IMG/VR virus record: IMGVR_UViG_3300023198_000260
Location: 1 to 20,346 of that record
Source of the DNA: a virus
Strand: one strand, 5' to 3'
Length of the DNA: 20,346 bases
Position numbers and translations under genes: made by a program. Of the stretch, positions 10,243 through 16,990 are shown one piece after another (the first letter of the stretch is position 1; each line of letters opens with the position of its first letter). The notes beneath the pieces were generated by a model. It searched no databases. It saw nothing but the letters and a program-made list of their open reading frames with translations, and had not been told where the DNA came from.

Positions 10243-10443
10243 TCATCTTTTATATACATCTCCTCCACAGTCTGGACAGACCCTGGGGCTGTGATCAGGC
10301 TGCTCTTTACTGTCCTTTACTTTCTGCCAGGAGTAGGATCCTCTCCAGGAGCAGGCCATACATATTACCAGGACAGAGATCCTCTCTGACTGGACCAGTA
10401 CTGTAGTATGCCTGACCCTGCTATTAAATAATCTTTTCATCAT
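10243..10443 (-). CDS. small zinc-finger protein
   Basis: 66-residue protein with two Cys pairs, CMAC (about residues 28-31) and CPDC (about 57-60), forming a probable zinc ribbon with a Trp-rich loop (SWRGSYSWQKVKD) between them. The N-terminus is basic. Two adjacent ATGs (10443 and 10440) overlap the TGA of the replication-protein gene as ATGATGA, so translation is coupled to that gene. Phage-encoded ribbons of this kind often act as small nucleic-acid or protein adaptors; the specific role is unknown. Confidence 0.72.
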   Translation of the reverse strand: MMKRLFNSRVRHTTVLVQSERISVLVICMACSWRGSYSWQKVKDSKEQPDHSPRVCPDCGGDVYKR

Positions 10444-11180
10444 TGTCTTAGATCTTTAGATATATCTGCCACTGACTGGACTGCCTTGGATCTCTTACCT
10501 GAGACCTCCCTATCTTTTCTCAGGTTCTGCTTAGACTCTGCCTCCAGTGCAAACTCTGTTTTTTTCTTTATCCATGTTGCTATCCTCAAATTAAGGCTCC
10601 AGGTTTTCTGATCCTCCCAGAGCATTATATCAGTTCCCTGGATGACTGCTGCCCAGTGCCTGTAAAAGTCATTAGCATCCTCCCTGGCTATCCTCTTACC
10701 TACCTCTGACCTGATAGTCTCCTGGAATATCTTTTGTCTCTCCTGGAGTGGTTTGATTAATTTTGTTTTTTTTCTGGCCACTCTTTTCTTATTTCTATTC
10801 TTATCTATATTTACATCTTCATTTTCATCTTCCATATGGGAGGTCATATGACCTACTTTATTTTTCTTTTTTGTATGCTGATTAACTCCTTTAATATTGT
10901 TCCTCCTGGACTCAGAGTATGCTCTCCTCTTGACTTTCTCCTCCTCCAGCCTGGGATTAAAAAAACTCCCAGACTCATCCTCCTCAAATTTATCTTTAAG
11001 GGCTGGCCATATTTTGTCCATACTTTGACCTAGCATATGACCTATCATATGAGTGGTCATATGACCTCTATTAAATTGCAAAATAAGGAGCTCTATATAG
11101 GCCCCTTTCTCCTCAAAAGTCATACCCATAGTCCCTCCCATAAAGTCATTAGGGTAAAATAAAAATGCAGGATCTTTCAT
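10440..11180 (-). CDS. replication initiator-like protein (DUF1376 N-terminus)
   Basis: 246-residue protein whose first 90 residues match the DUF1376/YdaU pattern seen in phage replication proteins: KDPAFLFYPNDFMGG, MTFEEKGAYIELLILQF, then a winged-helix-like domain. A low-complexity basic hinge follows (about residues 90-140, many Lys/Arg/Asn), then a second helical domain with WEDQKTWSLNLRIATWIKKK near residues 187-206, similar to C-terminal regions of such proteins. The family usually accompanies helicase loaders and lambda O-type functions. Inside the gene lie two clusters of 12-bp-spaced CATATG repeats, encoding GHMTTHMIGHM and GHMTSHM, next to an A/T-rich stretch, resembling an origin within the initiator gene. 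The start overlaps the end of the HNH gene region closely. Confidence 0.82.
   Translation of the reverse strand: MKDPAFLFYPNDFMGGTMGMTFEEKGAYIELLILQFNRGHMTTHMIGHMLGQSMDKIWPALKDKFEEDESGSFFNPRLEEEKVKRRAYSESRRNNIKGVNQHTKKKNKVGHMTSHMEDENEDVNIDKNRNKKRVARKKTKLIKPLQERQKIFQETIRSEVGKRIAREDANDFYRHWAAVIQGTDIMLWEDQKTWSLNLRIATWIKKKTEFALEAESKQNLRKDREVSGKRSKAVQSVADISKDLRQ
10833..11066. repeat. iteron-like CATATG repeats, candidate replication origin
   Basis: CATATG occurs at 11034, 11046 and 11058, exactly 12 bp apart, and at 10833 and 10845, again 12 bp apart. Two units are the identical perfect 12-bp palindrome GGTCATATGACC (10842-10853 and 11055-11066). The stretch next to the second cluster (about 10745-10900) is markedly A/T- and pyrimidine-rich. 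Lambda-type phages place origin iterons and an A/T-rich region inside the initiator gene, so this is a plausible origin. Caveat: His-Met pairs encode CATATG by necessity when His is CAT. Confidence 0.5.
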
Positions 11181-11510
11181 CTATTTAGTTTTTTGGTTAT
11201 TAATAATTCCATAATGACTCCCTCCCCTGGCCTTATTGATATCCAGGCAGAGATGGTCCTGCTCATGGCAGTCCAGACATAAAGTAATTAAATACTCATC
11301 AGGAGTCTCCCAGGGATATGTCCCTACATACTTTAAATGATGGACATTTAAGTAGTTTATTATTCTAGCCTCATATCTATTCAGAAACATATAGGACTCC
11401 AGGCTCTCATTGTGGCATCTTTGACAGGTATTATTATCCCTCATCAGGATCTCATCCCTCTTATGGATCCATCTTGGATCCCTTAATAGTCTACTATACC
11501 AGTCACTCAT
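11181..11510 (-). CDS. HNH endonuclease
   Basis: 109-residue HNH-family nuclease. It starts with WYSRLLRDPRWIHKRDEILMRD, a common lead-in of small phage HNH proteins, then the zinc pair CQRC (residues 29-32), the active-site HH dyad in LNVHHLKYV (about 56-58), the family's PDEYLITLC stretch and the second zinc pair CLDC followed by HEQDH (about 79-87). The catalytic metal-binding residues therefore appear intact. It lies between the XRE repressor and the replication protein rather than beside terminase, so a role in recombination, host-DNA cutting or homing is as likely as packaging. The leader reads TTTAACCAATG, with the shared element touching the start codon. Confidence 0.85.
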   Translation of the reverse strand: MSDWYSRLLRDPRWIHKRDEILMRDNNTCQRCHNESLESYMFLNRYEARIINYLNVHHLKYVGTYPWETPDEYLITLCLDCHEQDHLCLDINKARGGSHYGIINNQKTK

Positions 11511-11538: not shown

Positions 11539-11569
11539 AAAAAAAGTCACTGCCTTAATAGGTCAATGA
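11539..11569 (-). terminator. terminator overlapping XRE stop codon
   Basis: On the minus strand TCATTGACC (11569-11561) pairs with GGCAGTGA (11554-11547), with one bulged A and one G-T pair, around the loop TATTAA. A run of seven T (11545-11539) follows one base later. The stem ends at the XRE stop codon. With the promoter box at 11726 it makes the repressor gene a self-contained transcription unit. Confidence 0.7.
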
Positions 11570-11720
11570 TCTTATTATTAATATGATCAGGCATAGGAGT
11601 AGTCCCACTCAGATACTGACTGAGTAAACTCTTTGAGACCCCTATCTGCTCTGCTACCCAGTTGTATCTCAGGCCTCTATCCCTGATCCTCTGCTTTAGT
11701 GTTTTAGTGATTGTTTCCAT
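11547..11720 (-). CDS. XRE/Cro-type transcriptional repressor
   Basis: 57-residue helix-turn-helix protein: METITKTLKQRI, then YNWVAEQIGVSKSLLSQYLSG (about residues 19-39) is a textbook Cro/C1 HTH with the recognition helix SKSLLSQYL. I chose Met at 11720. An upstream in-frame ATG (11810) would add 30 residues (SFYLSYLPW...), but that stretch covers palindromic operators and a promoter box and does not resemble the family. The promoter-to-ATG distance is very short, so the mRNA may be nearly leaderless. Palindromes just upstream suggest autoregulation. This protein is the best candidate for a lysogeny or early-gene switch. Confidence 0.85.
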   Translation of the reverse strand: METITKTLKQRIRDRGLRYNWVAEQIGVSKSLLSQYLSGTTPMPDHINNKIIDLLRQ

Positions 11721-11725
11721 ATCTG

Positions 11726-11733
11726 CAAAATTA
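11726..11733 (-). promoter_or_regulatory. candidate promoter of XRE gene
   Basis: Minus-strand TAATTTTG matches the Bacteroidetes -7 box TAnnTTTG and lies five bases before the XRE start codon, so transcription would start at or near the ATG. It is overlapped by the inverted repeat TTAAAC-ATTA-GTTTAA (11731-11746). No clear -33 TTG is present. Confidence 0.5.
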
Positions 11734-11808
11734 AACATTAGTTTAATAATACCTGTATGATATATATCATGTTTCCAGGGGAGGTAAGATAGGTAAAATG
11801 ATTTTACC
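11731..11808. promoter_or_regulatory. three palindromic operator candidates
   Basis: The 94-bp gap between the XRE and sulfotransferase genes holds three inverted repeats: TTAAAC-ATTA-GTTTAA (11731-11746, overlapping the promoter box), the perfect 14-bp palindrome ATGATATATATCAT (11757-11770) and GGTAAAAT-G-ATTTTACC (11792-11808). They differ in sequence, so they may bind different proteins. The TGATATA core of the middle one recurs near other early promoters. Confidence 0.6.
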
Positions 11809-11814
11809 ACTCTG

Positions 11815-12483
11815 TTACCTATAGCCTAGATGATCCATGATCATCCTGACCTCTGGGTCCTGATAGAGCTCCAGCTCTCCTGCTGTCAGGATCTCCTTAT
11901 ACTTACTCTTAGCCTGCTGAAATGGTCTATTAATCTGCCAGGACCTATAGAGAGCATTAGTCTCCCTGGAGGGCTCCTGGCTAGGGATCTCCCTTGCCTC
12001 TATAGGGATCCTCCTCTTAGTAGTGTCCAGGACCCCTGGGATGATCTCCAGGTCCAGCCACTCAAATAGATCCAGGATCCCCTGGTAAAATAGATCCTCA
12101 TACTTGACCAGGAGGCCATGACCTCCAGTAGTTATCTCCATAGAGTTTATAGTACACTCTATCCAGGATCTCCTAAACTTATCCCAGGTCATCTGACCCT
12201 TAGTGTATCTCTGTTTTAAGGAGGCCCAGGTCTCCCTGGGATCTCTAGTAATACAGATGACTTTAATCTCTCTCTGGATCTTCTGGATCTCATCCAGGAG
12301 GTAGTCAGATAGCAGTGGACTTTTCATGACTACAGATGGATGGCCCCAGTCCTCTGACATCATATCAGCCAGACATTTAGGCTTGATCTCATGTAGTACA
12401 TCATAGACCTGGGGATGATTACCTATAACCTTTCTCAGGATGGATGTCCCTGAGTGATGAAAACCTGTAATTAAGATCTTCAT
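11815..12483 (-). CDS. sulfotransferase family protein
   Basis: 222-residue protein with the two PAPS-binding signatures of sulfotransferases: the 5'-phosphosulfate loop in ITGFHHSGTSILRKVI (residues 5-20) and the 3'-phosphate motif in ICITRDPRETWASL (about 76-89), plus a DVLHE stretch (28-32) and the KYEDL motif further on. The length suits a minimal cytoplasmic sulfotransferase; there is no signal peptide or membrane anchor. It would move sulfate from PAPS to an unknown acceptor, perhaps a surface glycan or a small molecule. It sits in the early region, between the recombination genes and the repressor, coupled by a 4-bp overlap to the upstream small gene, so it is likely made early in infection and is unlikely to be structural. 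Confidence 0.85.
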   Translation of the reverse strand: MKILITGFHHSGTSILRKVIGNHPQVYDVLHEIKPKCLADMMSEDWGHPSVVMKSPLLSDYLLDEIQKIQREIKVICITRDPRETWASLKQRYTKGQMTWDKFRRSWIECTINSMEITTGGHGLLVKYEDLFYQGILDLFEWLDLEIIPGVLDTTKRRIPIEAREIPSQEPSRETNALYRSWQINRPFQQAKSKYKEILTAGELELYQDPEVRMIMDHLGYR

Positions 12484-16070: not shown

Positions 16071-16949
16071 TTATAAATTACTTACATATTCCTTGAGCCT
16101 GGCCTTATAGATCTCCTGCTCCTCAGCCTCCTGCTCCAGGACCTTATCATAGATCTCTTGGTCCCACACATCCATGATAGCCTCTCTGCATAGTCTCTGT
16201 AATTTCACTGGCTCCAGAGCATCTAGCTCCACCTGGCCCAGGCCATTCCAGGAGGCAGTCCTGGAGTCTGTAGTCTTGGCTGGGGCTGGAGGGAGATCCC
16301 ACTCTACTACCTGGTCCTCCATTAAGGCTATCCTCCTGACCTCTACCTCTACTCCTAGCTTAGCCAGGTTCTCCTTTAGGCTCCTGGGGATGTCCTCTCC
16401 TGATGGATCATAGTCTCCAAAGTAAAGGATGACAGGCTTATGGCCAGCTCTCTCAGCCTCCTTTAATCTCCTGGCTGTATCATTCAGAAAAGTCAGGGAT
16501 GGATATCCCTTACAGGCTCCTACTGCTACATCCAGGCTCCTACATGGTTTCTCAAATACTCCCTGGAGTGCTTTCTTTTCTATAAACACCTCTGGATAAT
16601 AGGTCTGTTTCTCCCACCTGTTTCTCTTGTAGTGGGTCATCCAGGCTAGGATCTGCTCCTGGCCATACTCTATACTATACTCCAGGTCTTTCTCATAGGA
16701 GGAGGTATGTCCTATCATCTCCCTGTCATGGTCTGAGAAAGTCTCAAATCTTACTTGCTCATTCCATCTGGCCTGGGTCATGGCTGCTACTACTCTCTTG
16801 TAGTGCTGTAGAGTATTGGTCATCCCTCTAGCTACCAGCCTATAATGGAGTCCCCTTAATGTCAGGATCCCTGCCTCATAGTTTCTGATCTCCTCCATGG
16901 CATTGGTTATGATCCAGGATCTTGTAAATTCATCAGCTTGCTTGTTCAT
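16071..16949 (-). CDS. Topo VI A/Spo11-like TOPRIM protein
   Basis: 292-residue protein related by motif to the TOPRIM half of topoisomerase VI subunit A/Spo11-type proteins. The helical N-terminal part (to about residue 110) could hold a winged helix. FIEKKAL (catalytic-type Glu near residue 124) and then LYFGDYDPSGEDI (about 176-188, with the DxD metal site) form the TOPRIM signature, followed by VEVEVRRIAL and LPPAPAKTTDSR. Such phage proteins are usually uncharacterised; cutting or nicking DNA with Mg2+ is plausible but unproven, and the Spo11 catalytic tyrosine is not assignable by eye. I chose Met at 16949 because its leader carries ACTAACCAAAACAATC and a promoter-like box lies 42 bases upstream. 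The alternative ATG at 16985 would be nearly leaderless. Confidence 0.8.
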   Translation of the reverse strand: MNKQADEFTRSWIITNAMEEIRNYEAGILTLRGLHYRLVARGMTNTLQHYKRVVAAMTQARWNEQVRFETFSDHDREMIGHTSSYEKDLEYSIEYGQEQILAWMTHYKRNRWEKQTYYPEVFIEKKALQGVFEKPCRSLDVAVGACKGYPSLTFLNDTARRLKEAERAGHKPVILYFGDYDPSGEDIPRSLKENLAKLGVEVEVRRIALMEDQVVEWDLPPAPAKTTDSRTASWNGLGQVELDALEPVKLQRLCREAIMDVWDQEIYDKVLEQEAEEQEIYKARLKEYVSNL

Positions 16950-16990
16950 TGTTTTGATTGTTTTGGTTAGTACCTTATTTTCCATACGTG

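Follow-up and report, generated by a model that had tools for sequence, protein, structure and literature searches.

A phage gene encoding a protein with similarity to the poorly known DUF1376 family seems also to contain, as DNA, the origin from which the phage genome is replicated. Short CATATG repeats, arranged in two arrays and lying next to an easily melted A/T-rich stretch, are kept by hundreds of related phages even when the encoded amino acids change. Because this reading rests on anatomy, co-variation and gene context, binding by the protein, melting of the tract and the start of replication are inferred rather than shown, but we consider an iteron-plus-unwinding-element origin inside the gene of the initiator that binds it to be the best explanation (probability about 0.86). 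The gene was found in a virus record of 20,346 nucleotides, which was analysed at its full length and is called the window here. The features discussed are listed in Table 1.

Table 1. Positions of the putative origin, the initiator gene and other features in the window
Position	Strand	Feature
632	.	CATATG outside the gene
10440-11180	-	Putative initiator gene, 246 aa: N-terminal winged-helix-like DUF1376-type domain (predicted), charged linker, variable C-terminal module
10785-10832	-	Putative DNA unwinding element: A-rich hexamer tract GAAGATGAAAATGAAGATGTAAATATAGAT... (pyrimidine-rich on the plus strand)
10833-10853	-	Block B iterons in the linker: GGTCATATGACC TCC CATATG
10833-10838	.	CATATG core, block B, abutting the A/T-rich tract
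10842-10853		GGTCATATGACC palindrome, block B
10845-10850	.	CATATG core, block B
11025-11066	-	Block A iterons, codons 39-52: GGTCATATGACC / ACTCATATGATA / GGTCATATGCTA / GGTCAA, 12-bp units inside the region coding for the winged-helix-like domain
11034-11039	.	CATATG core, block A (an HM specific to this phage; most relatives have GGTCAA here)
11046-11051	.	CATATG core, block A
11055-11066		GGTCATATGACC palindrome, block A
11058-11063	.	CATATG core, block A
11181-11510	-	HNH endonuclease gene directly upstream of the initiator gene; a similar neighbour is seen in one relative (L055); context only, not part of the origin
11547-11810		HTH repressor (Cro/C1-like) gene
11815-12483		Sulfotransferase-like gene (PF13469, E 3.5e-7), among the replication and recombination genes
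14787	.	CATATG outside the gene
16071-16985		Protein matching PHROG 'DNA topoisomerase' (phrog_6247, E 5e-62)

The original prediction, which described five CATATG repeats with exact 12-bp spacing in two clusters, two identical palindromes and an adjacent A/T-rich, pyrimidine-rich stretch, was confirmed. Both palindromes read Gly-His-Met-Thr on the minus strand. It is the clustering that is unusual, since the window as a whole contained only 7 copies of CATATG, which is not above chance (expected 10.7). Against synonymous-codon shuffles of this one gene the excess of in-gene repeats was modest (p about 0.016; word shared between blocks A and B, p about 0.01), and a search for repeat families in the region found none at the thresholds used. 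GC skew was monotonic along the window and uninformative. The strong evidence comes from relatives, and it supports the further proposal of the original prediction that the repeats are selected as DNA and resemble a lambda-style origin within the initiator gene.

The protein matched the PHROG 'primosomal protein' families 9327 and 3992 (E 2e-8 and 7e-9), as did 53 and 46, respectively, of 59 N-terminal relatives. Its match to Pfam DUF1376 (PF07120) was below the gathering score (E 4.6e-4, 20.9 bits against a cutoff of 30.1), but 46 of the 59 N-terminal relatives matched this profile at E<=0.001, as did 38 of 62 full-length relatives. Only one weak homologue of the window protein was found in a collection of annotated phages. 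While an AlphaFold2 model from the single sequence was poor (pLDDT 46), a model of residues 1-105 based on an alignment of 59 sequences was confident (pLDDT 89). This model resembled many winged-helix domains, among them ORC2, RAP30 and IclR, though only at middling scores (Z 6-6.5); Foldseek gave no match at E<=0.001 and a PDB profile search found no relative. The C-terminal module varied among relatives, three of 62 carrying the DnaD-like DnaB_2 domain and two Phg_2220_C. The gene downstream was most often a DnaB-type helicase, a primase-helicase or a helicase-related ATPase (DnaB_C in 16, AAA_25 ATPase in 13 and a G39P-type loader in 1 of 44 downstream genes). In the window itself, however, profile searches showed no helicase or loader among the next genes downstream.

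It might be argued that HMxxHM is a functional peptide, for instance for metal or helicase binding, and that codon usage is incidental, since HM motifs are conserved in both places in close relatives. The codons argue strongly against this. In 72 distinct relatives the His codon of HM was CAT in 313 of 314 cases, against 141 of 200 for other His codons in the same genes, and the flanking Gly and Thr codons were nearly always GGT and ACC wherever those residues were kept. Over 48 non-redundant genes synonymous choice was frozen mainly in two blocks, codons 39-52 and codons 110 to about 126, and was mostly free elsewhere. In most relatives block A reads as the 12-bp units GGTCATATGACC / nnnCATATGATA / GGTCAAACGGTA / GGTCAA, whereas block B reads GGTCATATGACC nnn CATATG and runs directly into GAAAAT/GTAAAT hexamers. 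In one relative (L143) the linker array is expanded to six tandem 12-bp CATATG units (GHMTSHMTTHMTSHMIGHMIGHM). The one relative with CAC (L047) has no CATATG left in either block.

In more distant relatives from Clostridia, Bacteroidales and Flavobacterium genomes CATATG recurs at 11-bp pitch, so that it moves through all three reading frames and HM is replaced by NIC, SYE or STY. In relative L089, for example, the word is read as TYE, NIC, SYE and HM within one gene. Over 180 non-redundant genes there were 725 CATATG against 475±9 in shuffles that keep protein and codon usage; off-frame copies were 168 and 83 against 58 and 13, and spacings of 12 (181 times) and 11 (175 times) dominated. These frame-shifted copies contradict a peptide function for HM, which we regard as all but excluded. 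Both blocks carried the word in 149 of the 180 genes, 19 had it only in B, 2 only in A and 10, including L047, in neither.

Interestingly, some lineages have swapped the word for another in both blocks, even in different frames. Relative L102 shares the 25-bp word AAAGATAACCCAAAAGATAACCCAA between A (frame KITQ) and B (frame DNPK), L097 shares the 12-bp word CCATTAGGTTAT in two frames, L106 a 17-bp word and a Leptolyngbya phage a 17-bp word in inverted orientation. Lineages differ in their words (CATATG against GATAACCCAAAA), and two further relatives, from a Victivallaceae MAG and the human gut phage MT837034, carry TACCACGGTA in the linker instead of CATATG. Some of the genes lacking CATATG have no clear replacement word. 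The bases flanking CATATG agreed more between A and B of one gene than between genes (4.07 against 3.24±0.09 of 6; for different-frame pairs only, 3.13 against 2.86±0.08).

These agreements bear on a possible role at the RNA level, in which the palindromic arrays would form hairpins or a long A-B helix controlling translation of the mRNA. The mRNA of the window does fold well (z = -4.3, with a 14-bp A-B helix), but this pairing follows automatically from the palindromes. A/B flanks agreed more often in direct than in complementary orientation (78 against 31 genes), and L102 has five direct and no complementary copies. As the off-frame 11-bp phasing and the A-rich tract are also left unexplained, we consider this explanation very unlikely.

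In the A-rich tract after the last linker CATATG, wobble positions were more conserved than first and second positions for over 30 nt. Tract codons were GAA 508/GAG 0, AAT 549/AAC 2 and GAT 111/GAC 1, against 2320/645, 1771/979 and 1401/692 in the rest of the genes. By computed stability, the weakest 48 bp of the gene started within 24 nt of the tract start in 140 of 168 genes. In the window the tract overlaps the least stable 48 bp of the gene, and only 0.5% of 48-bp windows in the 20 kb are weaker. In three relatives (L093, L205 and L148) a T5orf172/MUG113 (GIY-YIG-like) domain has been inserted in frame between the winged-helix-like domain and the iteron-bearing linker, but block B and the tract remain adjacent. 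This suggests that B plus the tract is the core and A an accessory.

Alternatively, the arrays could be operators, bound by the protein itself or by the product of the nearby Cro/C1-like gene upstream in order to regulate the gene, and palindromic sites would indeed suit dimeric regulators. However, the sites lie about 110-350 nt inside the gene with no promoter-like excess around them, and the strictly adjacent low-stability tract with its frozen wobble positions is not explained. Moreover, lambda and SPP1 show that iterons plus an AT-rich tract inside an initiator gene form an origin (PMC5043065, PMC6316719). An operator role is unlikely as an alternative but cannot be excluded as an added function. 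It is also conceivable that short homology is kept for recombination which swaps the C-terminal modules, because these are highly variable, block B lies at the module boundary and the window encodes an Erf annealing protein. This is very doubtful, as it does not explain block A, the 11/12-bp phasing, the within-gene co-change of words or the easily melted tract.

CATATG-N5-6-CATATG pairs occurred in 46 of 49 whole virus records. In a set of places that was not exhaustive, all fell in the A/B cluster except one CATATG-N6-CATATG pair at 42181-42198 in the record of relative L036, far from the initiator gene.

The most likely mechanism is that the N-terminal domain of the initiator binds palindromic CATATG-centred iterons laid out close to helical pitch (12 bp here, 11 bp in other lineages), and that binding at the linker array melts the directly adjacent 40-50 bp A-rich tract. 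The variable C-terminal module, or the product of a neighbouring gene, would then bring in the DnaB-type helicase. Block A may serve extra initiator loading or looping, or copy control and autoregulation.

To see how far this layout extends, ten classical DUF1376-type genes from annotated phages and E. coli K-12 were examined. Nine had more internal 8-mer repeats than synonymous shuffles (p<0.01), five of them also in shifted frames at p<0.01. Examples are Pseudomonas phage PfDIW6 (AACGACCGTT twice at 11 bp in the linker, ACGTTGAACG twice at 11 bp in the domain region), Moraxella phage Mcat18, Acinetobacter phage QH4 and ydaU of the Rac prophage. In contrast to this region-free count, a test for the longest word shared between A and B with fixed region limits was not significant for most of these genes; the limits missed block A of QH4, so that A/B sharing in this group is suggestive only. 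It is more likely than not that DUF1376 proteins as a whole are phage initiators whose own genes carry the origin as two iteron blocks, one of them written into the coding sequence of the DNA-binding domain. The recognised word would have turned over repeatedly while both blocks changed together, so that DNA selection dictates the peptide inserted into the linker and into part of the winged-helix-like domain.

Origins inside initiator genes are known. What appears to be new is the assignment to DUF1376, the two-block layout with one block in the coding region of the putative DNA-binding domain, the use of one word in three frames and the turnover of that word; a literature search for DUF1376 or ydaU/ydaV in connection with replication found nothing on point, although most subscription papers lay outside it and the absence of reports is weak evidence. 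The findings assign a likely function and a concrete DNA target to a widespread phage family of unknown function, give predicted origins for hundreds of uncultured phages and offer an unusually clean natural example of one DNA word selected in all three reading frames of a gene.

The origin of bacteriophage lambda lies inside the initiator gene: O binds near-palindromic iterons within gene O, a neighbouring 40-bp A+T-rich region melts, and a partner gene for helicase delivery lies downstream (PMC5043065, PMC7466680). Lambda has one block of four 19-bp iterons, while here 6-bp cores at 12- or 11-bp pitch form two blocks, one of them inside the coding region of the putative DNA-binding domain. 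In SPP1, gp38 binds direct repeats of oriL within gene 38 next to an AT-rich unwinding element, and the loader gp39 and the DnaB-type helicase gp40 act with it (PMC6316719); as noted above, one relative has a G39P-type neighbour. SPP1 also has a second origin, oriR, about 13 kb away, whereas the pair search in 49 records, though not exhaustive, gave only the in-gene cluster, bar the one extra pair. The DUF1376 gene ydaU of the E. coli K-12 Rac prophage (L344:6120-6977) lies next to ydaV, a gene for a putative ATP-binding protein. Its linker carries repeats of a different word, TGTTCAAACA, in direct and inverted orientation, followed by an A-rich tract of AAAGAT/ACAGAT hexamers. Rac has an active origin, oriJ (PMC3945230), to which this origin-like layout may correspond, and ydaU provides a ready prediction in E. 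coli K-12. Finally, iteron plasmid origins also have iterons in phase with the DNA helix next to an A+T-rich unwinding region (reviewed in PMC5043065), but the iterons described here lie inside the coding sequence.
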